Shown piece by piece: positions 1-32,748 of a DNA stretch of 33,065 nt. The position numbers and the translations under genes were made by a program. Numbering within the stretch: the stretch's first letter is position 1; each line of letters opens with the position of its first letter. The stretch comes from Candidatus Cloacimonadota bacterium (GTDB lineage: Bacteria; Cloacimonadota; Cloacimonadia; Cloacimonadales; TCS61). Location: assembly GCA_021735645.1 (NCBI GenBank), contig JAIPGP010000042.1, positions 1-33,065 on the forward strand, in the 5' to 3' direction. A model generated the notes under the pieces. It was not told the DNA's origin. It saw only the letters and a list, made by a program, of their open reading frames with translations, and did no database searches.

Positions 1-2319
1 ACTGTAGCCTGTACAGGTGATACGATTTATTTTACTGACTTATCAACATCAATAGATGACCCAATAACTTCATGGGCTTGGGACTTCCAGAATGATGGAA
101 TTATTGATAGCAATGAGCCGAATCCACTTTGTGTTTATATTGAAGAGGGATTATACAGTGTTAGTTTAACGGTTGCAGATGATTATGGTAGAGAATCGGA
201 TACATTGATAAAGGATGATTACATAACAATAGCATCATATGACCCAGTATTGAACTTACCTGAAGAGTTTACTTTCAATGAAGATGAAAGCTCAGAGCTT
301 GATCTGGAGGAATACATTGAATATGAACCAATTGAAGAATTGCAGGTAATTTGGAGTGGAAATGATCAAATACACATAGAATCTGAAGGTCTTGTACTTT
401 ATTTCAGTGCCAATCTTAACTGGTTTGGGCAGGAACAAGTCACAATTTACCTTAGTAATGAAGCTTCCAGAAGTATTGTTTCTGATAGTATCATCGTGAT
501 TGTTGAGCCAGTAAATGATGCGCCGATGATTTCAATTCCTGATACTCTTTCTTTCATTGGAAATAAAATCTTTGATTTTGGTGAATTAGATTATGTTTCA
601 GATGTTGATGGGGATATGTTAGATTTATCCTATAGTGGTAATGAGAATATTTCTGTTAGTATTGAAGGACTGCTTGTATCCTTTGAGTCTAATGGTTGGT
701 ATGGCTCTGAGAATATAGTATTTGCAGTAAATGACAATGTGCAAAGAACAGCTGCTTTAGATACTGTACTTGTCATTGCATACCCTAATTGGTCAGTAAA
801 TCCACCTGATTATGAATATAGTGCTTCCATCTGGGGTATTGTCCTTCTTGATGATATCGAAGTGGATGTAACGAGTGGTATGCTGAGTTGCTTCGTAGGT
901 GAAGAATGTCGTGGAATAGCCAGCTTTGATGATGGTTCTATAATAGATTACAATGAATACTTTGGTCATATCATATTCCTGCCTATGATTTACAGCAATG
1001 TTACTTCCGGTGAAACTATAGATTTTCTCTATTTTGATGCTGAAACTGTAGGAATTTATCAAGTAGCAGAATCTATTGACTTTGTAGCTGACGTTGTGGT
1101 GGGAGATGGTTATGATCCTTTTGTTTTTCACGCTTCCACAGTTTCTACCATTGACATTAGCAAAGCAATGATTCCTGGCTGGAACTGGTTTTCGCTTAAT
1201 GTAACAGGTGAAGACATGAGCACAAACAGTGTGCTGGCTTCTATTGGAACAAATGCTTCTAATATCAAAAATCAAACCCAAAGTGCCATGTATTATCCCG
1301 GTCCTGGCTGGCTGGGTTCATTAAACACGATCAATAATATTACCTTTTATAAATTATCAGTAAATAATCCTGATACTTTGGAATATAGCGGTATGCCAGT
1401 TGAAATTTCAGAGATTACTTATGATCTTACGGCTGGCTGGAACTGGATATCTTATGCACCGCAGGCAGCGGAAAATATCAATTATGCTTTAGCTACATTG
1501 GATGATGGCTCAAATATTAAGAGTCAGACCCAAAGTGCGATGTACTATCCCGGACCGGGCTGGCTGGGAAGTTTGACTACCCTGCAGCCTTTGGATGGTT
1601 ATATGCTAAATATGAATGCTCCTGATCAACTTATTTATCCTGAACCAGAACCAGCAGTTAGAAGCTTTGCTGATATTTCTGAATTTAAAGTTGAATCTGC
1701 TGGCTGGAGCGTTAATCCGCATGAATACGAATTTAATGGAGTTGTCAATGCAGAGATTGTGGGAGAATCACAGATTGATCCTGTTGATTATGAACTTGCT
1801 GTTTTCTGTGGAGATGAGTGTCGTGGTATTGCAGAAGTATTGGATTACACTCAGCTTTTTGGTGGGGTATATCATTCTGTGATGGTTTATTCTAATGAAC
1901 TTGCTGGTGATGAAATGAGGGTTGTGCTTTACGATAAGGCAAGCGCGGATATCCTGGAAACTGATATATACTTTACTTTTATTGCCGATATGGTTAGCGG
2001 TGACTTCATCGATCCAGTGCAAATCATGCTGCCTGGTGATGAGACTAAGATCATAACAGCAACTCGTCTGGTAAGTTGTTATCCCAATCCTTTTAATCCT
2101 GAGACTAATATCAGCTTTGAACTTGCAGGTGATGAGATGGTGCGAATAGAAGTGTATAATATTAAAGGCCAGAAAGTTGCAACTGTGCTTGAGCAGGAGA
2201 TGACTGCTGGGGCACATTCGATTGTCTGGAATGCTCAGGGGCAGAACAGCGGAATATTCTTCCTTCGCTTTGAAGCTGATGGGGAATGTGATGTGAAGAA
2301 GGTGATTTTGTTGAAGTAG
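1..2319 (+). CDS. Exported PKD/cadherin-like repeat protein with T9SS-type C-terminal sorting domain (5' end outside window)
   Basis: Reading frame 1 is open from base 1, so the gene begins upstream of the window; 772 codons are visible. A TTG at 205 is only an internal codon. Domains in order (window residues): a PKD domain, about 1-75, with the core SWAWDFQNDG; two cadherin/VCBS-like beta domains, about 80-262, with a FNEDES opening and the linker EPVNDAP; a WSVNPPDYEY module with a CFVGEECRG core, about 263-380; two GWNW half-repeats, about 393-553, each with TQSAMYYPGPGWLGSL; a second WSVNPHEYEF/CRG module, about 567-680; and a sorting domain from about 688 starting CYPNPFNPETNISF and ending VKKVILLK. 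That last domain is the type A signal of the type IX secretion system, so the protein is probably carried across the outer membrane and cell-attached or released. No catalytic motif is visible. The modules recur in the giant protein at 22440-32711. Confidence 0.9.
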   Translation, partial: TVACTGDTIYFTDLSTSIDDPITSWAWDFQNDGIIDSNEPNPLCVYIEEGLYSVSLTVADDYGRESDTLIKDDYITIASYDPVLNLPEEFTFNEDESSELDLEEYIEYEPIEELQVIWSGNDQIHIESEGLVLYFSANLNWFGQEQVTIYLSNEASRSIVSDSIIVIVEPVNDAPMISIPDTLSFIGNKIFDFGELDYVSDVDGDMLDLSYSGNENISVSIEGLLVSFESNGWYGSENIVFAVNDNVQRTAALDTVLVIAYPNWSVNPPDYEYSASIWGIVLLDDIEVDVTSGMLSCFVGEECRGIASFDDGSIIDYNEYFGHIIFLPMIYSNVTSGETIDFLYFDAETVGIYQVAESIDFVADVVVGDGYDPFVFHASTVSTIDISKAMIPGWNWFSLNVTGEDMSTNSVLASIGTNASNIKNQTQSAMYYPGPGWLGSLNTINNITFYKLSVNNPDTLEYSGMPVEISEITYDLTAGWNWISYAPQAAENINYALATLDDGSNIKSQTQSAMYYPGPGWLGSLTTLQPLDGYMLNMNAPDQLIYPEPEPAVRSFADISEFKVESAGWSVNPHEYEFNGVVNAEIVGESQIDPVDYELAVFCGDECRGIAEVLDYTQLFGGVYHSVMVYSNELAGDEMRVVLYDKASADILETDIYFTFIADMVSGDFIDPVQIMLPGDETKIITATRLVSCYPNPFNPETNISFELAGDEMVRIEVYNIKGQKVATVLEQEMTAGAHSIVWNAQGQNSGIFFLRFEADGECDVKKVILLK

Positions 2320-15325: not shown

Positions 15326-15329
15326 TATT

Positions 15330-15770
15330 ATGAAGGGTATGACGATAATTGTAAAAAAAGTCACTCAGTTCATTGCACCAATAATCTTTATTTTCGGTTT
15401 ATACATTGTCTTTTATGGTCATTTATCTCCTGGTGGCGGTTTTGCCGGGGGGGTGATCATGGCAAGTTCATTTATTCTGCAGATCCTGGCAAATGGCGAA
15501 ATTCTTGATAAACTACGGCAGGAGGAATCGGGACTGGAATTTCTGGAGAGCGGAGCGATTCTGGGATTTATAATAATTGCAGCGCTGGGATTGATCTTAT
15601 CGGGTTCATTTGTATTTTTCAGTAATTTTCTGCATAATGGTGTAATTGGCAGATTATTGAGTGCCGGGATAATACCAATTGAAAATATTATTGTAGGAAC
15701 TGAAGTGTGTGCTGCTATTACCACCATCTTCATTGCTCTGGTTGTATATAAGGATGAGGTAGCATTATGA
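15330..15770 (+). CDS. mrpB: MrpB/MnhB/MbhF-like antiporter subunit
   Basis: 146 residues with four hydrophobic helices. The signature GHLSPGGGFAGGVIMASS lies between the first two helices, as in MnhB proteins. A second conserved patch, PIENIIVGTEVCAA, precedes the last helix. It is a structural subunit of the Mrp sodium/proton antiporter module. It is preceded by a GGGAG site, and its TGA overlaps the mrpC start as ATGA. Confidence 0.93.
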   Translation: MKGMTIIVKKVTQFIAPIIFIFGLYIVFYGHLSPGGGFAGGVIMASSFILQILANGEILDKLRQEESGLEFLESGAILGFIIIAALGLILSGSFVFFSNFLHNGVIGRLLSAGIIPIENIIVGTEVCAAITTIFIALVVYKDEVAL

Positions 15771-16105
15771 TACCATTTATTTTGTGTTTGATCCTGTTTC
15801 TCATTGGACTATATGGGATAATTACTCAAAAGAATCTGATCAAGATCATTCTCGGACTGGCAATAATGGAATACAGTGTAAATCTCTTTCTGATTATGAT
15901 CGGGTATATTGATGGCGGCACTGCACCGATATTTTCTGAGAAGTTTCATATCAGCAGTTATGTAGATCCCCTGCCTCAGGCAATGATCCTTACTGCTATT
16001 GTAATCGGACTGGCAACAACTGCCCTTCTATTGGCAATGGCAATAAGGTTATATAGGAAATATGGCAGTTTTGATATCAGAAAGATAAATAGTCTAAAAG
16101 GATAA
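15767..16105 (+). CDS. mrpC: MrpC/MnhC/NuoK-like subunit
   Basis: 112 residues with three hydrophobic helices, the NuoK fold. Typical residues are LGLAIMEYSVNLFLI in helix 2, with its conserved Glu, and DPLPQAMILTAIVIG in helix 3, a strong MrpC signature. It overlaps mrpB by 4 nt and leads into mrpD after 3 nt. It forms part of the lateral ion path linking MrpA and MrpD-like subunits to the hydrogenase side. Confidence 0.94.
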   Translation: MIPFILCLILFLIGLYGIITQKNLIKIILGLAIMEYSVNLFLIMIGYIDGGTAPIFSEKFHISSYVDPLPQAMILTAIVIGLATTALLLAMAIRLYRKYGSFDIRKINSLKG

Positions 16106-16108
16106 AAA

Positions 16109-17632
16109 ATGAATGCATTGATCCCGCTTTATGTAATTGTTCCATTAGCTTCTGCCTTTATTATGGCAATTCTGGGGCGACTTATAAAAAACTTTGGAAA
16201 AGCAGTTCTGATTTTAGAATTGCTTTTTCTAACATGTCTTACATTCTCATTTATTCTGAACTCCCAGGGTACATTGGTTTATAAAGTTGGAGGCTTTCCT
16301 GATACTGGTGATATTCCGATTGCTATCTATATGGTAATAGATGGACTTTCCAAACTGCTGCTTTTAATAATTTCTGTTGTAGGATTGTTAACTGCACTAT
16401 TCTCAAGTTCATATACCAGAGAATACACTGCTGAGCGAAAGTTTTATGTGTTATTCAGTTTAATGATCGCTGGTATGAATGGGATAGTGATCAGTGGAGA
16501 TATTTTTAATATTTACGTATTTCTGGAAATAGCAGCAATATCATCCTATATTCTTGTTGCCTTTGGAGTAGAAAAACATCAATTAGAAGCTTCTTTTAAG
16601 TATCAGGTTCTGGGTTGTCTTGCCTCACTAATGATCCTTCTGGCAATTGGTTTCATTTATTGGGGAACAGGAACTCTTAATATTGCTGACATATCTCGTC
16701 AGTTGCCTTACTCGGCACATTTTGTAAAATTTGTATCGATACTCTTTCTGGTCGGCTTTGGGTTAAAAGCGGCAATTTTTCCTTTTCATTCCTGGTTGCC
16801 GGATGCTCATTCTTCGGCACCTTCACCTATCTCTGCGATGCTCTCCGGTGTACTAATTAAGGCTATCGGTATCTACGTTCTGTTCCGCATCTTTTTTTCG
16901 ATGTTCGCCCTCTCCTATCAGATGTCCGTGACTTTTACAGTACTGGGAACTCTTTCTATGGTCATCGGTGGATTAATGGCAATAGGTCAGTGGGACTTTA
17001 AAAGGCTTCTGGCTTTTCACAGTATTAGCCAGATGGGATATGTTATTGTAGGTGTTGGTATTGGCATGATCTTACTTACTACCGGAGGCAGTAAAACTAT
17101 TGCGGCTTTTTCCATCTTTGGGGGTTTGTTCCACATGGTAAATCACTCAGTCTTCAAAGGACTGCTATTTCTTAATGCTGGTTCCGTGGAATATGCCACC
17201 GGAACCAGAGATCTGCGTAAACTGGGAGGGCTAGCCGAAAAAATGCCCATTACTGCCTCAACTTCTATGGTAGCTTCTTTTGCCATCTCAGGTATTCCTC
17301 CTTTTAACGGCTTCTTCAGTAAACTGATCATTATTGTAGCCGCCGTTTCTGCTCAATATTACTGGGTAGCTCTTTTTGCAGTAATTGTCAGTATTATCAC
17401 CATTTCCTCTTTCATGAAAGTGCAAAAATACGTCTTTTTTAATACTCCCAAGAGGAGTTATAAAAACTTCAGGGCAATTCCACTCCCGATGAAATTCTCA
17501 ATGATCATTATGGCACTTCTTTGCCTACTCCTCAGTATGTTGGTCCTTTCTCCGATCAGAGATATTTTTATTACTCCTGCGGTTGATGCTCTGATAAATA
17601 CACTGCAATATTCAGCAGCAGTTATAGGATGA
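16109..17632 (+). CDS. mrpD: MrpD/MnhD/MbhH-like antiporter subunit
   Basis: 507 residues, about 14 hydrophobic helices, normal MrpD length. All key residues are seen: the helix 5 Glu in IYVFLEIAAISSY, the helix 7 Lys in GFGLKAAIFPFHSWLPDAH, and the helix 8 Lys in SGVLIKAIGIYVL. Also present are HSISQMGYV, NHSVFKGLLFL and ISGIPPFNGFFSK. It should be the fully competent ion-pumping subunit, in contrast to the 609-residue relative upstream. An AGGA site lies 6 nt before the ATG. Confidence 0.95.
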   Translation: MNALIPLYVIVPLASAFIMAILGRLIKNFGKAVLILELLFLTCLTFSFILNSQGTLVYKVGGFPDTGDIPIAIYMVIDGLSKLLLLIISVVGLLTALFSSSYTREYTAERKFYVLFSLMIAGMNGIVISGDIFNIYVFLEIAAISSYILVAFGVEKHQLEASFKYQVLGCLASLMILLAIGFIYWGTGTLNIADISRQLPYSAHFVKFVSILFLVGFGLKAAIFPFHSWLPDAHSSAPSPISAMLSGVLIKAIGIYVLFRIFFSMFALSYQMSVTFTVLGTLSMVIGGLMAIGQWDFKRLLAFHSISQMGYVIVGVGIGMILLTTGGSKTIAAFSIFGGLFHMVNHSVFKGLLFLNAGSVEYATGTRDLRKLGGLAEKMPITASTSMVASFAISGIPPFNGFFSKLIIIVAAVSAQYYWVALFAVIVSIITISSFMKVQKYVFFNTPKRSYKNFRAIPLPMKFSMIIMALLCLLLSMLVLSPIRDIFITPAVDALINTLQYSAAVIG

Positions 17633-18123
17633 TTAATATGAAGCAGATTACTTTATTTATTATTATGTTTCTTTTATGGATGGGTTTCTCCTTCAGTCTG
17701 GAAGTTGCTAACATCATTGCTGGTATCTTTGCTGCCCTGCTCACTACAATAATATTTTCCAACAGATTTCTCACTTCCTGGCAGAAATTCTATAACCCGC
17801 TAAGATATTTCTGGTTGATCATTTATATAGTCATCTTCGTCTGGGAATGTATCAAGGCGAATTTTGATGTTGCTTATCGTGTTCTCAGTCCCAAAATGCC
17901 AATTAAACCCGGAATTGTAAAAGTGCATTCTTCGTTGAAAACAGATATAGCAAGAGTGATCCTGGCAAATTCCATCACTATGACTCCCGGAACAATTACT
18001 GTAGATATTATCGATAGCGATCTGTATATCCATTGGATATATGTGAAAAGTGATGATCCTGAGTATTACACCAAAAAGATCATCGGAAGATTTGAAACAC
18101 TATTAAAAAGGATATTTGAATAA
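17629..18123 (+). CDS. mrpE: MrpE/MnhE/MbhA-like subunit
   Basis: Up to 164 residues. It has two or three N-terminal helices, then a soluble domain with the MrpE signature NSITMTPGTITVD and a C-terminal YIHWIYV strand. The first ATG overlaps the mrpD stop as ATGA, the pattern also used at mrpC and at the ferredoxin gene. A second ATG at 17638 has an AGGA site 8 nt upstream and would give 161 residues; I cannot decide between them. The subunit is needed for Mrp complex assembly, and its ion role is unclear. Confidence 0.92.
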   Translation: MINMKQITLFIIMFLLWMGFSFSLEVANIIAGIFAALLTTIIFSNRFLTSWQKFYNPLRYFWLIIYIVIFVWECIKANFDVAYRVLSPKMPIKPGIVKVHSSLKTDIARVILANSITMTPGTITVDIIDSDLYIHWIYVKSDDPEYYTKKIIGRFETLLKRIFE

Positions 18124-18380
18124 TGATTGATATCTTACTGTATATTTTAATGGGATTAAGTTTCCTGTGTTTCCTGCGGGTTATCATGGGACCATCTGTT
18201 GCCGATCGTATGGTGGCTATTGATATTTTTGGAATTCTGGTCGTGGGCATCTGCGTTTTTCTAGCAATTAAAACACAAAGACTGTTCCTGATCGATGTTG
18301 CTATCGCCTGGATACTCATCAGTTTCATCGGCACCATCACATTGGCAAAGTATTTAACAAGGAAGAAATTAGATGAATAG
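18123..18380 (+). CDS. mrpF: MrpF/MnhF/MbhB-like subunit
   Basis: 85 residues with three hydrophobic helices, the usual MrpF size. The conserved stretch RVIMGPSVADRMVAIDIFG follows helix 1, and DVAIAWILISFIGTI forms helix 3. The start shares one base with the mrpE stop (TAATG), and the gene overlaps mrpG by 8 nt. It is a small structural part of the Mrp antiporter module. Confidence 0.94.
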   Translation: MIDILLYILMGLSFLCFLRVIMGPSVADRMVAIDIFGILVVGICVFLAIKTQRLFLIDVAIAWILISFIGTITLAKYLTRKKLDE

Positions 18381-18696
18381 TATCAGCATTATTCTTTATA
18401 TTGTCGGAGCAGCATTTGATTTGTTTGGCTGCCTGGGACTGCTTCGTCTGCCGGATGTTTATAATCGCCTGCAGTCTGCTACCAAGTCTGTCACCTTAGG
18501 CACCTGCAGCATTCTGTTGGGATTATTTATCCAATATGGATTTTCTGCTACAGGTATCAAGGCACTCATTGCAATACCTCTATTATTTTTCACTTCCACA
18601 GTTGCTGCTCATGCTCTGATCAGAGGATCATATAAAGCTGGAATTGATTTGTGGGATAAAACTGTGGTTGATCATTATAAGGAGCAGAACAAATGA
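18373..18696 (+). CDS. mrpG: MrpG/MnhG/MbhC-like subunit
   Basis: 107 residues with three hydrophobic helices. The MrpG signature LGLLRLPDVYNRLQSATKS follows helix 1, and FTSTVAAHALIRGSYKAG closes helix 3. With mrpB to mrpF and the two MrpA-like pieces upstream, this completes a full A-to-G Mrp set within the hydrogenase operon. The end overlaps the next gene as ATGA. Confidence 0.94.
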   Translation: MNSISIILYIVGAAFDLFGCLGLLRLPDVYNRLQSATKSVTLGTCSILLGLFIQYGFSATGIKALIAIPLLFFTSTVAAHALIRGSYKAGIDLWDKTVVDHYKEQNK

Positions 18697-19304
18697 GGTA
18701 TCCTAAATTGCGTGAAGTTAAAGAAGCCCTGGTTTCTTTATTCACAAAGCCATATACTAGTTCGTTCCCTAAGGGTGACTTCAAACCTTATCCAGGTTAT
18801 CGTGGAAAGCCGGTGGTAGATGAAGATAATTGTGTAGGTTGTGAAACCTGTGCAAATGTATGTCCACCTAATGCCATCACTTTTACAGATGACCCTGCAA
18901 CAGGTATGAGAACCATAACCCGCGATTATGGCAGGTGCATATTTTGTGGAAAATGCGAAGAACACTGCATTACAGGCAAAGGAGTGAAGCTTTCTGATGA
19001 GATATATGACCTTGCCTGCTTTGATCGTAACGAAGTAGTGGAAACTCAGCAACGTGAATTGCTTATCTGTGAAAATTGCGGTGCTATTATCACAACAAAG
19101 CAGCATCTGGAGTTTATTCATAATAAGCTGGGCGCTAAGGCTTTTGCCTCGGTTCTCAATCTGAATATGCTAAATGAAAGATTGCAGCTTGCCAAGGCAG
19201 AAGATGTCACGATTTCCATTCAAGATGGCTTAAAGAGAAAGAATACTTTCAATATTCTATGTCCTAATTGCAATCGCCAGCTTCAGGTAGAAAACCTTAG
19301 TTAA
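18693..19304 (+). CDS. mbhN: MbhN/EchF/HycF-like ferredoxin subunit with C-terminal zinc-ribbon-like cysteines
   Basis: 203 residues. Two [4Fe-4S] motifs of the NuoI type are present: CVGCETCANVC (47-57) and CIFCGKCEEHC (82-92). A C-terminal extension adds CENC (126-129) and CPNC (190-193), which could bind zinc or another metal, as in some HycF/MbhN relatives. The protein should sit on the small subunit and act as the electron entry/exit point for ferredoxin or for the operon's own FeS proteins. It lies far from the catalytic subunit genes, after the Mrp genes. Confidence 0.9.
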   Translation: MRYPKLREVKEALVSLFTKPYTSSFPKGDFKPYPGYRGKPVVDEDNCVGCETCANVCPPNAITFTDDPATGMRTITRDYGRCIFCGKCEEHCITGKGVKLSDEIYDLACFDRNEVVETQQRELLICENCGAIITTKQHLEFIHNKLGAKAFASVLNLNMLNERLQLAKAEDVTISIQDGLKRKNTFNILCPNCNRQLQVENLS

Positions 19305-19754
19305 GTGTTCACATCCTTTCAACCTCTTTTGGATAATCGTCAGAAACTGCTCTTTACCGGAGTAGGCAATCGCTTAAAATCAGATGATGCTATCGGCATT
19401 CAGGTCTGCGAAAATCTTATAAAAACTGCTCGTCTGGATACTCTGATCGTAGAAGCTGCCATTGAAAAATTCGTTGGAAAAATAAATTCACTTGCTCCCG
19501 ATATTCTCATTCTAGTAGATTGTACAGATTTTGATCAGTCACCAGGTTTTTTCAAATTGATCAGTGTCACGGATATTCCCGATACTACATTCCATACGCA
19601 TACTGTCTCTTTGCGCCGTATATCAGAATTCTTTGAAATGAAAACCTATCTCCTGGGTATTCAGCCCCAAAACGTGAAATTCGGAGAGATTATCTCCCCA
19701 CCGGTCTGGCAGGCTGCTCAAAAGATTATTAATTATCTGAATTCCAATTTATAA
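19305..19754 (+). CDS. hycI: HycI-type [NiFe]-hydrogenase maturation endopeptidase
   Basis: 149 residues from a GTG start placed directly after the ferredoxin stop. The family pattern is complete: GVGNRLKSDDAIG (19-31) with the metal-binding acidic residue, LVDCTDF (70-76) with Asp72 and Asp75, THTVSLRRI (98-106) with nearby histidines (97 and 99), and LLGIQPQNVKFGE. After nickel insertion the enzyme cuts the C-terminal tail of the large subunit. The tail of 36 residues on the subunit encoded at 11747 is the obvious substrate. It is the last gene of the operon. Confidence 0.92.
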   Translation: MFTSFQPLLDNRQKLLFTGVGNRLKSDDAIGIQVCENLIKTARLDTLIVEAAIEKFVGKINSLAPDILILVDCTDFDQSPGFFKLISVTDIPDTTFHTHTVSLRRISEFFEMKTYLLGIQPQNVKFGEIISPPVWQAAQKIINYLNSNL

Positions 19755-22439: not shown

Positions 22440-25400
22440 TTATTTATCTTCCGGATTTTGTCTGGAGATAGTTTCCACAGGAAATTCATCAATCATATCG
22501 ACAGTAAACATTAATATCAGGGCAGCGTCGTAAGCTTCCACGCAGCCATTACCATCAACATCGGCAACTGTGATCTGCCAGTTTTCCCAATCAGTGATCA
22601 ATAGACAGAAGTATTGCAAGACCAGAGAAGCATCAATTGCTTCTACTTCGATATTATGATTAACATCCCCATAAGGATAGCCACCAGAAATAGCAGGCGA
22701 AAGCTCGCTTTCGTTAGCATGACAATCAACTGCCGAAATCTGGTAGTCACCGGATTCCCCGATGATATTTAATACCGGTTCAGTGATGTATTCCAGTAAC
22801 TCACCATCTAAAAAAACACAGAAATAGGCAAAATCCTCATCCACGGGTTCATTCCAAACGATGTACCCGGCATCAAACAGTAACTCAGTTGGCACTTGCG
22901 GACAGATATTATCCAACGAGTATCCTATCATAATATTACTAACGAAATTACCCTCATCCATACCTGCTATAACGCGGAATTCATAAATATTAGAGTCTCC
23001 CGGCATTGAGTCCTGCAGAGTATGAACCAGCACCTGATATGTCTCAGCACCGTAGGCAATTGTAGAACCAGCGGCTATCCAATCTCCATCAACCAGATAT
23101 TCTACCAGATATTGTTCATTTGGTCTTGTGATCAGACTATCCGTATCTAAACCGCTACGGGTGAATTCTGCCATAACCCAGCCACCCTGGTCATCCGGGA
23201 CATCATAAACATCTTCCAGAACAGGGTAGGGGGAAACATCTTTCACTACTAACACTGTATCACAGGCAGTCAGTCGCTCAAACTGATCGTCAACGTAAAA
23301 AAGTACTGTTTCACTGCCCAGCCATGAAGGCTCAGCACAAATATTTACTATACTTCCTGAAACATTAGCAATAAGAGTATCTCCGGTTACTACTGAATAA
23401 GCCAGATTCTCATTATCGACATCCCAGGCGTAGTTTTCCAAATTTATTTCAAGCTGTCCGCACCCATCCAGATAGAGCGTTTCAGGCAAGTCTATTTCCG
23501 GAGCATCGTTAACCGGATTTACGTGTACGGTCACAGTGTCAGAAGCAGAAAGTCTATTAGAATTGTCATGCACTGTAAATATTAGAGTCTCATTGCCAAA
23601 CCAGTTGTCTAAGGCACTAAAATGCACCTCTGTATCAACAATTGATACATTGATTTCCACATTATCTGTTACCGTTAATGACAATGAATCACCATTAGGA
23701 TCATATAAATATTGTGAGAAATCTTCATCCAGCGTTTCGTCTTCATTAAAGAACAGACTGTCTGGCAATTCAATTATTGGGGTATTAATATTCTGAGTAA
23801 CTGTTACGAAGTCTTCTTTGATTAAAGTTTCTGCATTTGACTGCTCATCTGTTACGGTTAAACTTACACAGTAAACACCCGGCTGATAATATATCCATTG
23901 AGGATTTGATTCATAACTGTCTATTACACCGTCATGCTCAAAATCCCAAGCCCAGGAAACAACATTTGGATTAACAACAGCACTAAATTCAACTGTCAAA
24001 GGTGCCATACCAGAATCAGGTTCAGCAAATAAATCAGATAAGAGTGGGGCATAAACATCAATAGGGCATAAATTTGGTGGATAGCCAATATCAGTCCCCG
24101 GAGAGCTATTTGTTGTAAAACCTGCCTCATAAATCATATCGCTACTCGCATCATATACAGAAAAAGTTACAGTTTCCGTCGTATCTCCATTTATCAACAT
24201 TGAAACATAGGCCAATTCTTGATCTAATACAACTTCCTGACTACCCCGACATTCTCCATCTACAAATGCTGCAACAATATCACCAGCTTCTGCCGGTTCC
24301 CCATTTACCGTCACTTCTCCATACATAACTGTAGAGTTTGTGTAGATTACAGGTTCAAATACTTCATCATCACGTGTATTTGTTTCTCTGATTACTGATC
24401 GATTACTTCTGCCTGCCGGAGAAGGATAGTAGAATTCAGTATCATTATTGACGCGAACCCAATATGCTTCACCCGGATGAACAGTAGTTAGTGTATTGAA
24501 ACCTTGACCAAGAAGCGGGTCGAAACTGGTAGTTATATTCTTGACTTTTATAAGATTTCCGTTATTGATCAAATCTTCAAAAGCCACTTCCACATTCATG
24601 CTACCCTGAGTGATACAAGCGATCAGGTTCCAGCCGGCTTTCAATGAGATTCCAATAGTCTCTGGATTCAGATAACTTCCATATATATTGAGATTTGCTG
24701 AATTTGCCATTTTGATCCAATATCCACAACCATCTGTTAAATGAGTTAAAGTATTAAAAGTTGGTGATAAAGAGGGGTCTTCAACAGATTTAGTATCTTT
24801 CACTTTTACCAATCCGTTTGACATCAAATCAGCAAAGACGCTTTCAATTTCGCTATTTTCTAAATGAACATTAAGAGAAACTAGATTCCAGCCTGTATTC
24901 AGATCAATATCCAAATCAATACCTGTACCAGATATAGCATCAATAGGTAATAGATTAGGTGGGTAACCAATATCATTACCAGGATTCGTATATGTTTCAT
25001 AAGTTACGGTGCAAACCAGATCTCTGCTCACATCATACACTGCAAAATTTACTGTCTCGGCTTCATCTCCCTGAATATTTATTGAACTAATTGTTTGAGA
25101 GCCAGTATAGACCACGGAACCAACTCCACGGCACTCTTCACCCACAAACGCTCCAACTTCATCACCTTCATCAGCCATTTCTCCATCTATTGTTACATCA
25201 CAGTAAGCATATGTTGTGTTAGTATAACAAACAGTATCCCATGGTCTGGGGAAATTATAATATTCTAAAACTGAAATGTAATCATCCTTTAATTCCGTTG
25301 AAATTAATCTTGTTGAATCTGATACGGTTAAACTTACGCTATAAACTCCAGGTTCATCATAGGACCAAACCGGTTCCTGTTCATAACTGTCTATCTCTCC

Positions 25401-28400
25401 GTCATTATCGAAATCCCATGCCCAGCTTATCGGATTTCCAGACGATATATCTGAAAATTCAACTGTTAAGGGTGCTGGTCCTGTAGTAATGTCAGCAGTG
25501 AAATCTGCAATTAATGCTGGATTCACGTATGAGGAAGCGGCTATTGGCAATAGATTGGGTGGATAACCAATATCTCCACCGGGGTTCGACTGAGTTGTAA
25601 AACTTACAATACAGACCATATCCTCGCTCACATCATATACGGCAAAATTTAATGTTTCTATTACTTCACCTTGAATATTCATTGTACATATTGCCTGAGA
25701 ACCACTCATCATTATCTGACCAACAGACCGGCACTGTTCATCCACAAATGCTCCTACTTCATCATCATTTGCTGCGGGTTCACCATCAATTGTTACTAAG
25801 CTGAAAGCTACTGTTGCATTAGCATAATATGTCACATTCCATGGTCTGGGGAAGTAGTGTATCTCTAGACCTGATGCAGCAGCAAACTGAATTAAATCTG
25901 GAGGGTAGCCTAAGATATCACCTGGATCACTTAGTGTTGTATATTCTATATCATAAGTTATATCTGCACTGGCGTCATATACAGCAAAAGATATTTCTTC
26001 CGCTGCTTCTCCATTGATCAGAAGAGACGCATAAGCTGCTCCATCATTGATAACAACTTCCTGGTATCCCCGGCATTCTCCGTTAACAAAAGCTGCTACA
26101 ATATCAGATTCTTCTGCCGGGAATCCATCAATTGTTACTTCGCCAAACAAGGTAGTAGAATTTGTGTAGATAACCGGATCAAAGATGTCATTATCACGAG
26201 TGGTTGATTGTCTGATAACTGATCGGTTACTTCTACTCCCAGAAGCTGGATAATAGAAGTCTATATCGTTAGTAACTTCTACCCAATATGCCATACCGGG
26301 AACTAAAGTCTGTAATGTATTAAAACCAGGGTCAAGATTTGGGTCATAACTCTGGGTAATACTTTTTACTTTAATTAAGCAGTTTAAATCAACTAATTCA
26401 GCAAAAGCCGTTTCCACATTCATATTTGATTCAGGAATAAAAGCAACCAGGTTCCAGCCGGCATTGAAAGGAATGACAGTAGTGGCAGGGTCAAGATATG
26501 TACCACAAATTTCCACAGTATCAGAATTTCCTACCTTCACCCAGTAACCGTAGCCATTTGAGAAATTATCCAGAGTATTGAAATATTGAGGGATCAGCGG
26601 CACATCAGTGAGTTTAGTATCCTTGACCTGAATCAGGTTATCATCAGCTATCTGTTCGGAGAATATAGCTTCAATACTATTATCTTCTAATTCCATGTTT
26701 ATAGAGAACAGGTTCCAGCCGGCATCCAGATATGTTTCCTGATTGCTGAATACTGTTATAAAATCTTCTTTGATTTCTGTAGATGAATTCCTGGTAGAAT
26801 CTGAAATCGTTAAACTCACGTTGTATACTCCAGGCTCATCGTAAACCCAAGCCGGATTCTGCTCATAGCTGTCTATCTCTCCATCATTCTCAAAATCCCA
26901 TGCCCAGCTGATCAGATTACCATATGATATATCTGAAAATTCAACTGTTAAAGGTGCTGGGCCTGAAGTAATGTCAGCAGCGAAATCTGCAATTATTCCT
27001 GGATACGAGTATGATGAAGCGGCTATTGGCAATAGATTGGGTGGATAGCCAATGTCTCCACCGGGGTTCGACTGAGTTGTAAAACTTACCCTACAGACCA
27101 TATCCTCGCTCACATCATATACTGCGAAATGAACCGTCTCTATATACTCTCCTTGAATATTTAAATAAAGTGCATAAGGCACTCCTCCGTTATTATTTAC
27201 ATATCCGACTGCTCGACATTCTCCATCAACAAATGCACCTACTTCATCATCATCCGCTGCCGGATCACCATCAATTGTTACTTCACAGTAAGCTATTGTT
27301 GAGTTAGTATAATACACTACATTCCAGGGTCTGGGAAATGTTAATAATTCTTCTCCTACTATGATGTAATCAACTTTTAGTTCAGTGGAAGCCTCTCTTC
27401 TTGAATCATCAGCAACCGTTAGACTTACACTGTAAACTCCTGATTCATCATATACCCAGGTCGGATTCTGCGCATTGCTATCAATCTCTCCGTCATTCTC
27501 AAAGTCCCATGCCCAGCTGATCGGATTTCCAGACGATATATCTGAAAAATCAACTGTCAAGGGTGTTAGTCCTGATGTAGGATCTGCTGTAAAATCTGCG
27601 GTTAATGATGACATTGCACTAAGTATAACTAATTCGGGTGGATAACCTAAGAAACCACCTGGATTGCTCTGAGTTATATATTCTATATCATAAGTTATAT
27701 CTGCACTGGCATCATATACAGCAAAAGATACTGATTCCTGACTCTCTCCATTGATCAGAAGAGACACATAAGCTGTTCCTTCACTGATAACAACTTCCTG
27801 GTATCCGCGGCATTCTCCATTGATATAAGCTGCTACAATATCAGATTCTTCTGCCGGAACTCCATCAATAGATACTTCACCAAACAAGGTGGTTGTATTT
27901 CTGTAGATAACCGGTTCAAAAATGTTATTATCACGTGTGGTTGACTGTCTGATAACTGATCGACCATTTCTACCCCCAGAAGCTGGATAATAAAAGTCCA
28001 CATCTGTAGTAACTCTTACCCAATATGCCATGCCAGGAACTAAAGTACTTAATGTATTAAAGCCAGAGCCAAGCGAGGGGTCATAACTTTCTGTAATACT
28101 TGTTACCCTTATTAAGTAGTCTAAATCAACTAATTCAGCAAAAGCTATTTCCACATTCATATTTGATTCAGGAATAAATGAGATCAGATTCCAACCCGCA
28201 TTCAAATGAATCACAGTACTGGCTGGATCAAGATATGTACCACTTATTTGCACAGTATCAGAACTTCCTACCTTCACCCAGTAACCATAACCATTTGAAA
28301 AATTATCCAGAGTATTGAAATATTGAGAGAGCAGAGGAACATCTGTGAGTTTAGTGTCCTTGACTTGAATCAGGTTATCAGCGGCTATCTGTTCAGAGAA

Positions 28401-31400
28401 TATCCCTTCAATACTATTGTCTTCTAATTCCATGTTTATAGAGAACAGGTTCCAGCCGGCATCCAGGTTTATTTCCTGATCTTCCATGACCATGATATAG
28501 TCTTCTTTGATCTTTGTAGATGCATTCAGACCATTACTAAGTTCCACAGTCAAACTTACACTGTATATTCCAGGGTTTTCATAGACCCACACCGGATTTT
28601 GCTGGTAGCTGTCAATCACTCCGTCATTCTCAAAATCCCATTCCCAACTGATTATAGAATCTTGTAAAGTAGATAAATCTGTAAATTCTACTGATAAAGG
28701 TGCAATCCCTGAAACAGGATCAGCAGAGAAATCTGGCATCCAATTTGTATATAGTTCTTGAACTTCTAAATTGGAAAGAGCACGATTAAAAATTTGAATA
28801 TCATCTATTGATCCATGAAAATACTTATCCCATCCATAATTATGAGACTGACACCCAATTCCCAGTGGTCTCGAACTCCCATTAATGAAATTATTGGTAT
28901 TGTCCTCAATTGTCATCTCCAAAACTCCATCTAAATAAAATTTGTATTGCATATTATTTCTATCTCTAATCCAGACAATATGATGCCAGTTGTTGTCTCC
29001 TGCTATTTGATAATTGCTATAAGCTATATGTTGACCACCATGTGAAAAATATCCGTCACAACGAGAAGTTGCAGCAATCTTATTTGCATAGTTGATATGT
29101 TCTGAATTGAAAACACACATTGTCACTTCCCCATCATCAGAATCTTCATATCCCAATATTATGGAATTCCCATAAATATTAAATACTTCTTCACTTCTTA
29201 TCCAAGTTGACCATGTAAAGCTTTCATTTATGCCGTATTGGAGTATAAGATCAGTAGTAATATATTGATCCTCTCCATTAAAATGCATTGCTCCTGTTGA
29301 ATTAAAAAACCTGTCTTCGGTTGCAGTAGCTCCGTGATTTGTACCATGGTGATTATTACCACTTTCATCAGCTGCATTGCCATCTAAAGGAAAATATGCA
29401 ACTATATCTTCACCTGATTCAAATATAGAAATATAATCTTCCTTCAATTCCGTTGAAGTCTCTCTTCCGGCATCATCAGCAACCGTTATACTTACACTAT
29501 AAACTCCTGGTTCATCATACTCCCACACCGGATTCTGCTCATAACTGTCTATCTCTCCGTCATTCTCAAAATCCCATGCCCAACTTACAGGATTACCATA
29601 CGAAATATCTGAAAATTCAACTGTCAAGGGTGCTGGTCCTGAAGTTATGTCAGCAGTGAAATCTGCAATTAATGCTGGATTCAAGTATGACGTAGCGGCT
29701 ATTGGCAATAGATTGGGTGGATAACCAATGTCATGGCCTGGATGCGACTGCGTTGTATAGCTTACACTACAAACCATATCTCGGCTTACATCATACACAG
29801 CAAAGTTTACTATCTCTATTGTTTCTCCCTGAATGCCAAATGTACTAACTGCTTGAGAACCATTCATCGCTACTTGACCAATCCCTCGACACTGATCATT
29901 AACAAAGGCTCCCACCTCATCACCACTTGCTGCGGGCTCATCATCTATCGTTACTTCACAATAAGCTACTGTTGAATTAGCATAATATGCCACATTCCAT
30001 GGTCTTGGAAATTCTGGTAATTCTTCTACTACTGTGATGTAATCAACTTTCAGTTCAGTGGAAGTCTCTCTTCCTGAATCATCAGCAACCGTTAGACTTA
30101 CACTGTAAACTCCTAATTCATCATATTCCCAAACCGGATTCTGCGTATTGCTGTCAATCTCTCCGTCATTCTCAAAGTCCCATGCCCAGCTGATCGGATT
30201 ACCATACGATATATCTAAAAATTCAACTGTCAAGGGTGCTAGTCCTGATGTAGGATCTGCTGTAAAATCTGCGGTTAATGATGACATTGCACTAAGTATA
30301 ACTAATTCGGGTGGATAACCTAGGAAACCACCTGGATTGCTCTGAGTTATATATTCTATATCATAAGTCATATCTGCACTGGCATCATATACAGCAAAAG
30401 ATACGTTTTCCGATACTTCTCCATTGATCAGCAGTGAAACGTATGCAGTTCCATCATGGATAATTACTTCCTGGCATCCACGGCATTCTCCGTTCACGAA
30501 AGCTGCTACAATATCAGATTCTTCTGCCGGGAAGTCATCAATTGTTACCTCGCCAAACAAGGTAGTAGTATTTGTGTAGATAACCGGCTCAAAGATGTCA
30601 TTATCACGGATGATTGACTGTCTGATAACAGGTCGGTTGCATCTACTTCCAGAATCTGGATAATAAAAGTCAATATCGTTAGTAACTCTTACCCAATATG
30701 CCATGCCCGGTTCTAAGGTTTCCAAAGTATTAAACATTGGATTTAGATCAGGATCAAAACTTTGGGTAATACTTTTTACTTTCATCAGATAATCAAGGTC
30801 AATCAGCGCTGCAAAAGCATCCTCAACATCCATCTCTGTTTGGGGAGTATAGGCAATCAGGTTCCAGCCTTCATTTATCGCTATCAAGGTATTAGCAGGA
30901 TCAAGCGTAACTCCTTCTAGCGTTACACTACAATCTTCTTCTACATCTACCCAGTAACCAATTCCTTGTTCCATTGCCTCAAGCGTATTGAAGTAATCAG
31001 GGATATCCGGCACTTCTGTAAGTTTTGTATCTTTCACCTGTACTAACTCACCCTCAGATATTTGATCTGCAAACACCTCCTCAAGATTTGAGTTTTCCAA
31101 TGCCAGATTCACAGAAAACAGATTCCAGCCAGCATTAAGACTGATCTCCTGACTACCTAATGTTACAGAGTAGGCATCAATGGGCATCAAGTCAGGTGGA
31201 TAACCAATAATATCTCCTGGATAAGTCATAGTACTATATTCAACATTGATAATCTCATCTGCACTGGCATCATAAACAGCAAAAGATACTGATTCCGGCA
31301 TTTCCCCATTGATTAAAAGAGACACATAAGCTATACTGTCATGTATTACAACTTCCTGGCATCCTCGGCACTCCCCTTCAACAAAAGCAGCCACAATATC

Positions 31401-32711
31401 TCCTGATTCTGCCTGTATATTATCTATCGTTACTTCTCCAAACAGTGTGGTTGAATTAGTATAAATCACCGGTTCAAAGATTTCATTATCACGATTCGTT
31501 GTTTGTCTGATAACTGATTGACCATTTCTACTCCCAGAAGCTGGATAAAAAAAGTCTATATCATTAGAAACTCTTACCCAGTATGCCATGCCAGGAACTA
31601 AAGTACTTAATGTATTAAAACCAGGGTCAAGATTGGGGTCATAACTTTCTGTTATACTTTTTACCATTATTAAGTAGTCTAAATCAACTAATTCAGCAAA
31701 AGCTATTTCCACATTCATATTTGATTCAGGAATAAATGAGATCAGATTCCAACCAGCATTCAAAGGAATTACAGTGCTGTCAGGATCAAGATATGTACCA
31801 CTTATTTGCACAGTATCAGAACTTTGTAATCGTACCCAGTAACCGTATCCGTTTGAGAAATTATCCAGAGTATTGAAATATTGAGTGATCAGAGGAACAT
31901 CAGTAAGTTTGGTATCCTTGACCTGAATCAGGTTATCATTAGCTATTTGTTCAGAGAATATAGCATCAATACTATTATCTACTAATTCCATGTTTATAGA
32001 TATCAGGTTCCAGCCGGCATTTAGACTAATTTCCTGATTGCCGAATACTGTAATAAAATCTTCTTTCAATTCTGTGGAAGTTGCTCTTCCAACTGAATCT
32101 GTGATGGTTAAACACACGCTGTAAATCCCAGGCTCATAGTAAATCCAAACAGGATTCTGCGCATAGCTGTCTATCTCTCCATCATTATCAAAATCCCACT
32201 CCCAGCCGACAGGATTCCCACCGGATAAATCCGTAAACTGAACCTCCAATGGCTCTATACCCGTTAATGTATCAGCACTAAAATCTGCTGCAAATTCACG
32301 CACCTGAAAATTGCCACTAACACCTGAGCCGGTATTACCAAAATAATCGATGGCAGTGACTCTTGAAAATACATCGTTAGAGACTATTTGCGGCACCTGC
32401 CAGTTATATTCGTAATTACTATCAGGTTCTGCTGCCAGGCTTACATCTTCATCAGCATTGTGCTCATCATCATAATAAAATTCTAATAAAACAGGTTCCG
32501 CCAGATTGTCATTAAAATAATCTTCTATTATACAAAACTCTATGTTTACTGAATCTTCAGTAAGAAATTCCTCGCCTCCTGCCGGGTAACTGATAGTCAC
32601 CACCGGATCAACGCTATCCAATATTCCAACACCTGAATCCACTGTCACTACTACTGCATTGACCAATACAAACATCATCATGAATAGAAAAAACACTATC
32701 CTAATCTTCAT
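22440..32711 (-). CDS. Giant exported multi-PKD repeat protein with LamG-like, cadherin-like and C-terminal dockerin-like domains
   Basis: 3,423 residues from the ATG at 32711 (MKIRIVFFLF), placed 5 nt after the GGAGG; earlier ATGs overlap or precede that site. An N-terminal signal peptide (hydrophobic to about residue 20) is followed by an Ig-like region. Eight PKD domains with a SWAWDFENDGEIDS-type core are centred near residues 174, 845, 1047, 1359, 1735, 1939, 2432 and 2922. Between them lie five double GWNL modules (first at about 230-397), nine modules with AAFVNGECRG or GAFV.. cores, and one LamG-like domain at about 1100-1322 (YFPLDGNAADESGNNHHG, WHHIVWIRDR, GSIDDIQIFNRAL). Then come two cadherin-like domains (about 2970-3160), an Fn3-like part, and a dockerin-like end (about 3345-3410: GDVNHN..EAIDASLVL and DVDGNGCVEAYDAALIL). 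No T9SS sorting domain. Probably an adhesin or surface protein; no enzyme motif seen. Confidence 0.93.
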   Translation of the reverse strand: MKIRIVFFLFMMMFVLVNAVVVTVDSGVGILDSVDPVVTISYPAGGEEFLTEDSVNIEFCIIEDYFNDNLAEPVLLEFYYDDEHNADEDVSLAAEPDSNYEYNWQVPQIVSNDVFSRVTAIDYFGNTGSGVSGNFQVREFAADFSADTLTGIEPLEVQFTDLSGGNPVGWEWDFDNDGEIDSYAQNPVWIYYEPGIYSVCLTITDSVGRATSTELKEDFITVFGNQEISLNAGWNLISINMELVDNSIDAIFSEQIANDNLIQVKDTKLTDVPLITQYFNTLDNFSNGYGYWVRLQSSDTVQISGTYLDPDSTVIPLNAGWNLISFIPESNMNVEIAFAELVDLDYLIMVKSITESYDPNLDPGFNTLSTLVPGMAYWVRVSNDIDFFYPASGSRNGQSVIRQTTNRDNEIFEPVIYTNSTTLFGEVTIDNIQAESGDIVAAFVEGECRGCQEVVIHDSIAYVSLLINGEMPESVSFAVYDASADEIINVEYSTMTYPGDIIGYPPDLMPIDAYSVTLGSQEISLNAGWNLFSVNLALENSNLEEVFADQISEGELVQVKDTKLTEVPDIPDYFNTLEAMEQGIGYWVDVEEDCSVTLEGVTLDPANTLIAINEGWNLIAYTPQTEMDVEDAFAALIDLDYLMKVKSITQSFDPDLNPMFNTLETLEPGMAYWVRVTNDIDFYYPDSGSRCNRPVIRQSIIRDNDIFEPVIYTNTTTLFGEVTIDDFPAEESDIVAAFVNGECRGCQEVIIHDGTAYVSLLINGEVSENVSFAVYDASADMTYDIEYITQSNPGGFLGYPPELVILSAMSSLTADFTADPTSGLAPLTVEFLDISYGNPISWAWDFENDGEIDSNTQNPVWEYDELGVYSVSLTVADDSGRETSTELKVDYITVVEELPEFPRPWNVAYYANSTVAYCEVTIDDEPAASGDEVGAFVNDQCRGIGQVAMNGSQAVSTFGIQGETIEIVNFAVYDVSRDMVCSVSYTTQSHPGHDIGYPPNLLPIAATSYLNPALIADFTADITSGPAPLTVEFSDISYGNPVSWAWDFENDGEIDSYEQNPVWEYDEPGVYSVSITVADDAGRETSTELKEDYISIFESGEDIVAYFPLDGNAADESGNNHHGTNHGATATEDRFFNSTGAMHFNGEDQYITTDLILQYGINESFTWSTWIRSEEVFNIYGNSIILGYEDSDDGEVTMCVFNSEHINYANKIAATSRCDGYFSHGGQHIAYSNYQIAGDNNWHHIVWIRDRNNMQYKFYLDGVLEMTIEDNTNNFINGSSRPLGIGCQSHNYGWDKYFHGSIDDIQIFNRALSNLEVQELYTNWMPDFSADPVSGIAPLSVEFTDLSTLQDSIISWEWDFENDGVIDSYQQNPVWVYENPGIYSVSLTVELSNGLNASTKIKEDYIMVMEDQEINLDAGWNLFSINMELEDNSIEGIFSEQIAADNLIQVKDTKLTDVPLLSQYFNTLDNFSNGYGYWVKVGSSDTVQISGTYLDPASTVIHLNAGWNLISFIPESNMNVEIAFAELVDLDYLIRVTSITESYDPSLGSGFNTLSTLVPGMAYWVRVTTDVDFYYPASGGRNGRSVIRQSTTRDNNIFEPVIYRNTTTLFGEVSIDGVPAEESDIVAAYINGECRGYQEVVISEGTAYVSLLINGESQESVSFAVYDASADITYDIEYITQSNPGGFLGYPPELVILSAMSSLTADFTADPTSGLTPLTVDFSDISSGNPISWAWDFENDGEIDSNAQNPTWVYDESGVYSVSLTVADDSRREASTELKVDYIIVGEELLTFPRPWNVVYYTNSTIAYCEVTIDGDPAADDDEVGAFVDGECRAVGYVNNNGGVPYALYLNIQGEYIETVHFAVYDVSEDMVCRVSFTTQSNPGGDIGYPPNLLPIAASSYSYPGIIADFAADITSGPAPLTVEFSDISYGNLISWAWDFENDGEIDSYEQNPAWVYDEPGVYNVSLTISDSTRNSSTEIKEDFITVFSNQETYLDAGWNLFSINMELEDNSIEAIFSEQIADDNLIQVKDTKLTDVPLIPQYFNTLDNFSNGYGYWVKVGNSDTVEICGTYLDPATTVIPFNAGWNLVAFIPESNMNVETAFAELVDLNCLIKVKSITQSYDPNLDPGFNTLQTLVPGMAYWVEVTNDIDFYYPASGSRSNRSVIRQSTTRDNDIFDPVIYTNSTTLFGEVTIDGFPAEESDIVAAFVNGECRGYQEVVINDGAAYASLLINGEAAEEISFAVYDASADITYDIEYTTLSDPGDILGYPPDLIQFAAASGLEIHYFPRPWNVTYYANATVAFSLVTIDGEPAANDDEVGAFVDEQCRSVGQIMMSGSQAICTMNIQGEVIETLNFAVYDVSEDMVCIVSFTTQSNPGGDIGYPPNLLPIAASSYVNPALIADFTADITTGPAPLTVEFSDISSGNPISWAWDFDNDGEIDSYEQEPVWSYDEPGVYSVSLTVSDSTRLISTELKDDYISVLEYYNFPRPWDTVCYTNTTYAYCDVTIDGEMADEGDEVGAFVGEECRGVGSVVYTGSQTISSINIQGDEAETVNFAVYDVSRDLVCTVTYETYTNPGNDIGYPPNLLPIDAISGTGIDLDIDLNTGWNLVSLNVHLENSEIESVFADLMSNGLVKVKDTKSVEDPSLSPTFNTLTHLTDGCGYWIKMANSANLNIYGSYLNPETIGISLKAGWNLIACITQGSMNVEVAFEDLINNGNLIKVKNITTSFDPLLGQGFNTLTTVHPGEAYWVRVNNDTEFYYPSPAGRSNRSVIRETNTRDDEVFEPVIYTNSTVMYGEVTVNGEPAEAGDIVAAFVDGECRGSQEVVLDQELAYVSMLINGDTTETVTFSVYDASSDMIYEAGFTTNSSPGTDIGYPPNLCPIDVYAPLLSDLFAEPDSGMAPLTVEFSAVVNPNVVSWAWDFEHDGVIDSYESNPQWIYYQPGVYCVSLTVTDEQSNAETLIKEDFVTVTQNINTPIIELPDSLFFNEDETLDEDFSQYLYDPNGDSLSLTVTDNVEINVSIVDTEVHFSALDNWFGNETLIFTVHDNSNRLSASDTVTVHVNPVNDAPEIDLPETLYLDGCGQLEINLENYAWDVDNENLAYSVVTGDTLIANVSGSIVNICAEPSWLGSETVLFYVDDQFERLTACDTVLVVKDVSPYPVLEDVYDVPDDQGGWVMAEFTRSGLDTDSLITRPNEQYLVEYLVDGDWIAAGSTIAYGAETYQVLVHTLQDSMPGDSNIYEFRVIAGMDEGNFVSNIMIGYSLDNICPQVPTELLFDAGYIVWNEPVDEDFAYFCVFLDGELLEYITEPVLNIIGESGDYQISAVDCHANESELSPAISGGYPYGDVNHNIEVEAIDASLVLQYFCLLITDWENWQITVADVDGNGCVEAYDAALILMFTVDMIDEFPVETISRQNPEDK
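27361..27730. repeat. Near-identical internal DNA repeat, copy 1 (partner 30034-30403)
   Basis: Lies within the giant gene and covers a PKD domain and the start of the neighbouring ECRG module. It aligns without gaps to 30034-30403 at an offset of 2,673 bp, a multiple of three; more than 100 bp around 27600-27730 differ at only a few positions. Weaker similarity continues to about 27985. It points to recent duplication or gene conversion. Confidence 0.85.
28021..28465. repeat. Internal GWNL-module DNA repeat, copy 1 (partner 31579-32023)
   Basis: Covers most of the third GWNL double module of the giant protein. It aligns without gaps with 31579-32023 at 3,558 bp (1,186 codons); long runs, for example around 28105-28190, are identical. 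Copies in the fourth module (about 26280-26740) are more diverged. Confidence 0.8.
30034..30403. repeat. Near-identical internal DNA repeat, copy 2 (partner 27361-27730)
   Basis: Second copy of the PKD-plus-ECRG block in the giant gene. The spacing of 891 codons means recombination between copies would delete or duplicate a reading-frame-preserving segment that includes the LamG-like domain. Confidence 0.85.
31579..32023. repeat. Internal GWNL-module DNA repeat, copy 2 (partner 28021-28465)
   Basis: Second copy, coding for the first GWNL double module after PKD domain 1. Same frame and no gaps against the partner. Confidence 0.8.
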
Positions 32712-32715
32712 CATT

Positions 32716-32721
32716 CCCTCC
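32716..32721 (-). promoter_or_regulatory. Ribosome-binding site of the giant gene, deciding the start
   Basis: GGAGGG on the minus strand lies between a first ATG (32723) that overlaps it and a double ATG at 32714 and 32711. Only the last has normal spacing (5 nt from GGAGG), so translation should begin MKIRIVFF. Confidence 0.7.
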
Positions 32722-32748
32722 ATTATAATTTAATTCAATATCTCTTTT

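Follow-up and report, generated by a model that had tools for sequence, protein, structure and literature searches.

The window analysed here, the whole stretch of 33,065 nucleotides from a Candidatus Cloacimonadota bacterium, encodes a giant modular protein (P0001) built largely from two kinds of repeated module. An earlier note made from the letters alone had taken this protein to be exported and placed it at 22440-32711 without naming a strand; its start holds, and the open reading frame (ORF) proved to be 22440-32723 on the minus strand (Table 1), with an N-terminus that, by pattern match, resembles a signal peptide, in agreement with export. All five double modules with GWN motifs (GW) and all nine modules with CRG motifs (CRG) that had been described were located, and PKD domains are indeed interspersed, in eight stretches; the inventory had, however, missed a LamG domain, a Big_9/Cadherin_4 region and a C-terminal dockerin. 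This dockerin is the best clue to the function of P0001.

Table 1. Features of P0001 and P0002 (positions in the window) and scaffoldin ORFs of the source genome
Feature	Position	Strand	Basis or remark
P0001, giant modular exported protein	22440..32723	minus	single ORF, 3427 aa
P0001 signal-peptide-like N-terminus	32655..32723	minus	pattern match only; end approximate, by eye
P0001 PKD 1	32040..32288	minus	local-model bounds
P0001 GW double module 1	31494..32039	minus	GW profile; form without W/Q/W set
P0001 CRG 1, after GW 1	31149..31481	minus	CRG profile
P0001 GW double module 2	30609..31154	minus	GW profile
P0001 CRG 2, after GW 2	30264..30596	minus	CRG profile
P0001 PKD 2	30021..30272	minus	local-model bounds
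P0001 CRG 3, second type	29670..30002	minus	CRG profile
P0001 PKD 3	29418..29666	minus	local-model bounds
P0001 LamG (Laminin_G_3, concanavalin-A-like), residues 1149-1322	28758..29279	minus	Pfam, E 2e-16
P0001 PKD 4	28479..28733	minus	local-model bounds
P0001 GW double module 3	27936..28481	minus	GW profile
P0001 CRG 4, after GW 3	27591..27923	minus	CRG profile
P0001 PKD 5	27351..27599	minus	local-model bounds
P0001 CRG 5, second type	26997..27329	minus	CRG profile
P0001 PKD 6	26742..26990	minus	local-model bounds
P0001 GW double module 4	26199..26744	minus	GW profile; structure model made
P0001 CRG 6, after GW 4	25854..26186	minus	CRG profile; structure model made
P0001 CRG 7, second type	25512..25844	minus	CRG profile
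P0001 PKD 7	25263..25508	minus	local-model bounds
P0001 CRG 8, second type	24912..25244	minus	CRG profile
P0001 GW double module 5	24372..24917	minus	GW profile
P0001 CRG 9, after GW 5	24030..24362	minus	CRG profile
P0001 PKD 8	23790..24038	minus	local-model bounds
P0001 cadherin-like Big_9/Cadherin_4 region, residues 2981-3115	23379..23783	minus	below Pfam cut-offs
P0001 C-terminal type I dockerin, residues 3351-3403	22515..22673	minus	Pfam; two Ca loops
P0002 CRG, before GW	772..1152	plus	CRG profile
P0002 GW double module	1141..1656	plus	GW profile; full W/Q/W set
P0002 CRG, after GW	1696..2043	plus	CRG profile
P0002 T9SS type A sorting tail	2080..2307	plus	Por_Secre_tail match
Scaffoldin, 2997 aa			8 cohesins (local model)
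Scaffoldin, 2359 aa			5 cohesins (local model); CRG-GW-CRG block mid-protein
Scaffoldin, 1271 aa			2 cohesins; N-terminal C10 peptidase; tail under Pfam cut-off
Scaffoldin, 4756 aa			4 cohesins (local model)
Scaffoldin, 5164 aa	L124:3-15494 (G000:C98)		contig edge; nine cohesins alternating with CRG

From N- to C-terminus, P0001 consists of the signal-peptide-like start, a region without Pfam match, and then PKD, GW-CRG, GW-CRG, PKD, CRG, PKD, LamG and PKD; this fourth PKD domain is followed by GW-CRG, PKD, CRG, PKD, GW-CRG, CRG, PKD, CRG, GW-CRG and PKD, and the last PKD domain by the cadherin-like region, approximately 235 residues without Pfam match, and the dockerin. GWN motifs occur in pairs at residues 237/324, 532/619, 1423/1510, 2002/2089 and 2611/2697, and CRG motifs at residues 451, 746, 944, 1637, 1835, 2216, 2330, 2530 and 2824; the repeats are not due to chance, with profile E-values between 5.6e-51 and 1.6e-47 in the CRG set of nine and between 1.1e-100 and 6.7e-90 in the GW set of five, both sets having also served to build the profiles. 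Each GW double module is directly followed by a CRG module of one sequence type, and the remaining four CRG modules are of a second type with no GW before them; the true repeat unit thus appears to be GW-CRG, with approximately 300 residues and five copies. Identity among the five copies is 51-78% in residues and 59-83% in bases, and different codons are used at 18-53% of the positions with identical residues, so that we read the repeats as mostly old duplications under constraint; a tandem repeat finder returned no repeats. The same modules had also been claimed for an exported protein at 1-2319 of the window, and this protein (P0002) is indeed CRG-GW-CRG followed by a tail of the type IX secretion system (T9SS).

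The P0001 dockerin (PF00404) scores 30.2 bits against a cut-off of 22.9, has calcium loops of the pattern D1 N3 N5 E9 D12 and D1 D3 N5 E9 D12, and is closest, among solved structures, to the scaffoldin adaptor protein B dockerin (4uyp_B, E 2.3e-9), which together suggest that it binds a cohesin. It is one of 35 dockerin matches in the source genome, 33 of which lie in ORFs that were examined; two loops with D or N at positions 1, 3, 5 and 12 are present in 31 of these 33, P0001 included, and single-loop dockerins were found on contigs C61 and C111 (the latter a fragment). Positions 10-19 from the loop start are common to the set (A/S, Y/F, D, A, S/A, L, I/V, L, Q, Y), and it is thus plausible that the giant protein and the enzymes use the same sockets. 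In a Pfam scan of 19 of the 33 dockerin ORFs, 10 showed catalytic-type domains (three C25 gingipain-like peptidases, three M14 carboxypeptidases, one peptidyl-arginine deiminase, GH18, GH57 and CotH kinase); the others scanned carry sortilin/BNR, X25, LTD or Ig-like domains, or nothing else. One dockerin-bearing peptidyl-arginine deiminase ORF adjoins two short cohesin ORFs in a compact gene group (L140:2726-5924, G000:C130), and at L132:3-18817 (G000:C110) a scaffoldin with five cohesins is immediately preceded, on its own strand, by three dockerin ORFs, one of which encodes a C25 peptidase.

Cohesins are likewise present in the source genome, with 27 matches at E up to 0.1, 18 of them above the Pfam cut-off; a local model counts 28 cohesins together in five scaffoldin ORFs (Table 1). 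CRG modules occur in all five of these scaffoldins and GW in four; these four, whose C-termini lie within their contigs, all have a T9SS tail, and CRG-GW-CRG is the last block before the tail in three of them. CRG and GW modules therefore belong to scaffolds too and not to P0001 alone. The layouts of the 2997, 1271 and 4756 aa scaffoldins recur in the genomes G013, G040 and G105, with some copies truncated at contig ends; that of the 2359 aa scaffoldin recurs in G013. At L133:351-4163 (G000:C69), cohesins and a CRG-GW-CRG-tail end are fused to a C10 (streptopain-type) peptidase and its propeptide region; the layout cohesin-CRG-GW-CRG-tail is also found at L177, L178 and L182 in three relatives, in scans of the sequence beyond their N-terminal parts. 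As for the secretion system itself, the source genome encodes the T9SS translocon protein SprA (449 bits, counted with neighbours in the frame, against a cut-off of 200) and at least 150 T9SS sorting tails (the best 150 of 247 candidates having been scored).

The source genome (G000) belongs to the same genus as G105, whose matches agree in contig number, coordinates and score with those of G125, a Ca. Stygibacter frigidus genome (locus L006), and the window is therefore very probably from a species of Ca. Stygibacter (Candidatus Cloacimonadota). For this genus, passages of an Antarctic lake metagenome study report a cellulosome-like system, with dockerins on GH18, GH57, S8 and C25 enzymes and a scaffoldin of 3,755 aa that carries cohesins, CBM2/CBM3 and a C-terminal surface-attachment domain, and propose that the complex binds starch, chitin and protein (PMC8542988). 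A group 4g Mbh-Mrp hydrogenase is also reported in these passages (PMC8542988), and genes at 2514-19754 of the window fit it; as read from translations, [NiFe] hydrogenase maturation genes (HypA, HypE, HypD, HypF-like) on the minus strand adjoin plus-strand genes for membrane-bound hydrogenase, ferredoxin and Mrp antiporter-like subunits, a cluster that closes with a maturation-protease-like ORF.

The system described here and the published one are alike in genus, in dockerins on GH18, GH57 and C25 enzymes, and in a tandem-cohesin scaffoldin with a C-terminal T9SS domain; by contrast, the passages of the published account that concern the complex make no mention of CRG, GW or P0001 and describe CBM2/CBM3 in the scaffoldin, and their dockerin-borne halomucin-like protein (944 aa) differs from P0001 (PMC8542988). 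A Pfam scan of three of our own scaffoldins found neither CBM2 nor CBM3. We suspect that the published "CBM2/CBM3" is a superfamily label that also covers cohesins. In the relative G040, one scaffoldin combines 14 cohesins with five CRG modules and a single GW module and, read from Met25, has exactly 3755 aa; because this length is the one given in the published passages, the published scaffoldin or a close orthologue would carry CRG and GW modules. Clostridial-type cellulosomes resemble the present system in a dockerin with two calcium loops (nearest 4uyp_B) and in scaffoldins with several cohesins but differ from it in that, here, the scaffoldins are T9SS-tailed and the enzymes are mainly peptidases, cellulases being absent from the 19 dockerin ORFs (of 33) that were scanned.

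The reading that we favor, and hold with moderate confidence, is that P0001 is a non-catalytic accessory arm of a cellulosome-like surface complex in Ca. Stygibacter-like Cloacimonadota, in which CRG and GW modules would be mainly structural. The modules, dockerin, cohesins, scaffoldins and T9SS translocon gene on which this reading draws are all present in the source genome. P0001 would be exported by its signal peptide and would plug, through its C-terminal dockerin, into cohesins of the large scaffoldins, which would be fixed on the outer surface through their T9SS tails; the PKD, CRG and GW modules would form a long arm, with CRG and GW serving mainly to position other modules, and LamG, the likeliest glycan- or protein-contacting part, or other modules would touch substrate or neighbours. 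In most scaffoldins, and in many surface proteins unrelated to them, the same CRG-GW-CRG block adjoins the sorting tail and would act there as a stalk between the tail and the working domains.

The nature and spread of the two modules bear on this role. That they are unnamed, as the earlier note had it, was borne out: Pfam and NCBIfam scans of whole proteins and of 100 CRG and 61 GW members gave stray matches only (for CRG, CelD_N in one row at E 0.0085 in Pfam and three in NCBIfam; for GW, one in Pfam at E about 0.009 and none in NCBIfam), so that neither module could be assigned to a named family. The best sequence matches among solved structures were at chance level (E 0.47 to a ribosomal protein and 0.99 to the repressor NemR); in the open-access library searched, none of the papers listed dealt with CRG or GW modules, and four GWN strings occurred in no paper. 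The suggestion that the modules are lineage-specific, by contrast, failed: GW occurs in 96 of 117 sampled Cloacimonadota genomes and in 45 of 198 sampled genomes of Bacteroidota (the phylum of a Prevotella communis genome), with loci in further phyla. CRG was found in at least 84 of the 117 Cloacimonadota genomes (a lower bound, with the best 37 candidates per CRG-rich genome scored) and cohesins (E up to 1e-4) in 59; the source genome alone has 94 CRG and 21 GW matches. A CRG profile search of genome contigs confirmed 86 relatives at 79 loci in Cloacimonadota, Ignavibacteriales, many Bacteroidota and Neomarinimicrobiota, and in single Desulfobacteraceae, "Deltaproteobacteria" and Verrucomicrobia bins.

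In ORFs of these 79 loci, GW double modules have CRG on both sides in 45 of 69 cases, before in 62 and after in 49 with shorter models; with a longer model, CRG is found upstream in 14 of 71 and downstream in 68 of 71, the low upstream count reflecting overlapping model ends, and all such adjacency counts are biased upwards because the loci were found through CRG. A match between the alignments A4 and A5 (78.5% over 29 columns) was disregarded, since the module ends probably overlap there. The last GW ends a median of 198 aa (range 20-241) before the C-terminus in 69 ORFs of other genomes with their C-terminus in the locus; a local T9SS-tail model matches 33 of these, and among the other 36, many have, by eye, tail-like ends and two (L058, L015) dockerin-like ends. 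Such a position near the C-terminus of many unrelated proteins favors a stalk or platform. Among Bacteroidota surface proteins, giant LamG proteins (Prevotella, Saprospiraceae and others) carry CRG-GW-CRG within a few hundred residues of their C-terminus, whereas in P0001 GW-CRG is internal and fivefold and a dockerin takes the place of the sorting tail. At L011, L018, L019, L021, L059 and other Bacteroidota loci, the gene for a giant LamG protein with CRG-GW-CRG at its end is often directly followed by one that starts with CRG, a recurrent two-gene arrangement.

The main alternative is that CRG and/or GW bind a ligand (carbohydrate or peptide) and that P0001 serves chiefly as a multivalent arm for targeting substrates, which we consider possible but unlikely. 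An AlphaFold2 model of CRG from 100 sequences (pLDDT 91.1, pTM 0.81) has eight strands, and its best PDB neighbours by Foldseek are CBM20 starch-binding domains (E 1.5e-3, TM-score 0.37), which would suit ligand binding, as would the substrates proposed for the complex in the published passages (PMC8542988). TM-scores to CBM20 domains are, however, 0.35-0.44, and a second aligner (VIA) places these domains at Z 6.0-6.6 amid many sandwiches and ranks unrelated ones equally high, with teneurin, a lipoxygenase, rhamnogalacturonan lyase, usher C-terminal domains, transthyretin-like and CnaB domains at Z 6-8.3; moreover, a CBM20 sequence profile matched 0 of 100 CRG members and no CRG row matched any CBM family in Pfam. 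We read the modelled CRG as a common transthyretin/CBM20-like sandwich with no assignable family: it resembles CBM20, transthyretin-like and CnaB-like beta sandwiches in general arrangement but differs from them in that there is no sequence match, TM-scores are weak and no single family is prominent. Several CRG positions are near-invariant over the 100 rows (F35 in 98, R41 and G95 in 97, W4 in 93, F69 and A34 in 91), and E39 is kept in 87. The single conserved cysteine, considered as a disulfide or metal site, is Cys in 78 rows, Leu in 13, Val in 6 and Ile in 3, and exactly one cysteine is present in 45 of 100 rows; such a role is thus unlikely, and the exchange with Leu, Val and Ile suggests that the residue is most likely buried.

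The description of both modules as beta domains suits CRG, which is all-beta in its model, but not GW, whose model (pLDDT 85.2, pTM 0.79) is mixed alpha/beta with two strand-helix repeats. The two GW halves are homologous (hhalign 99.7%, 81 columns, 25% identity), and the double module is thus an internal duplication. No credible fold match for GW was found in the PDB (Foldseek best E 0.54, VIA best Z 3.9), in rows that cover mostly model residues 63-176 and barely test the first half; the absent match does not make GW a new fold. Six positions covary, namely W12, Q43 and W54 and their counterparts W99, Q127 and W140: among 33 distinct copies from the source and related genomes, all six residues are present in 21, five in one, two in one and none in ten, and in the GW alignment (A5) at least four are kept in 51 of 55 rows from other loci. 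This duplicated, nearly all-or-none set may mark some kind of site in the W/Q/W form and, along with the conserved aromatics, speaks for ligand binding; however, all five P0001 copies have none of the six residues (the P0002 copy has six of six), which argues that GW is structural, at least in the P0001 arm.

P0001 might instead be an independent adhesin or matrix protein whose dockerin only caps its end, stabilised by calcium, a function that some dockerins outside cellulosomes may also have. Adhesins commonly contain PKD, LamG and cadherin-like domains, and P0001 has all three; there is no cohesin match in the window's contig (C36); and other giant CRG-rich ORFs have neither a cohesin match nor a complete dockerin, such as a 6106 aa open frame (L123:3-17051, G000:C29), whose examined part has 18 CRG modules and no cohesin or dockerin match. 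The genome is, however, rich in both partners, its dockerins share one pattern and its scaffoldins have sorting tails, and we consider an end cap very unlikely. That CRG is itself another type of receptor, or a cohesin that has diverged, as its alternation with cohesins in the 5164 aa scaffoldin and its abundance in the genome might suggest, is extremely improbable, given that a profile-profile comparison with the genome's cohesins gave an hhalign probability of 0.72% over 14 columns and that no partner module is apparent.

Several observations count against P0001 as an accessory arm with mainly structural CRG and GW modules. The near-invariant CRG residues and the W/Q/W set exceed what a bare spacer needs, and the cohesins of the source genome are divergent (best solved match E 0.0085). 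The dockerin-bearing C-terminus of P0001 is conserved in relatives (68% in G105; 62-63% in G040, in which one copy has an internal stop), but the best orthologue, in G105, has a single GW, of the W/Q/W form, and its CRG and PKD domains in a different order; the arm has thus been remodelled within the genus and its repeat layout is not conserved. Finally, P0001 has no match to Por_Secre_tail, the sorting domain of T9SS type A cargo, which leaves its passage across the outer membrane unaccounted for. A sorting tail is likewise absent from 18 of the 33 dockerin ORFs, P0001 included; these end 7-45 residues after the dockerin, too short for a tail of approximately 75 residues, and 14 of the 18 have a signal-peptide candidate by a crude pattern. 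Tail-less dockerin proteins could conceivably bind cohesins of T9SS-tailed scaffoldins in the periplasm and be exported with them as pre-assembled complexes, a form of hitch-hiker export that we consider quite unlikely.

The surface route of dockerin proteins without a sorting tail thus becomes a testable question. CRG and GW are now defined as two unnamed, widespread surface-protein modules, and a GW structure would be informative because this module combines a nearly all-or-none residue set with no credible solved relative. A seemingly odd giant protein is now placed, probably, in a complex, and the Ca. Stygibacter system, described in the published passages as enzymes and one scaffoldin, would come to include several scaffoldins and one or more giant arms without catalytic function.
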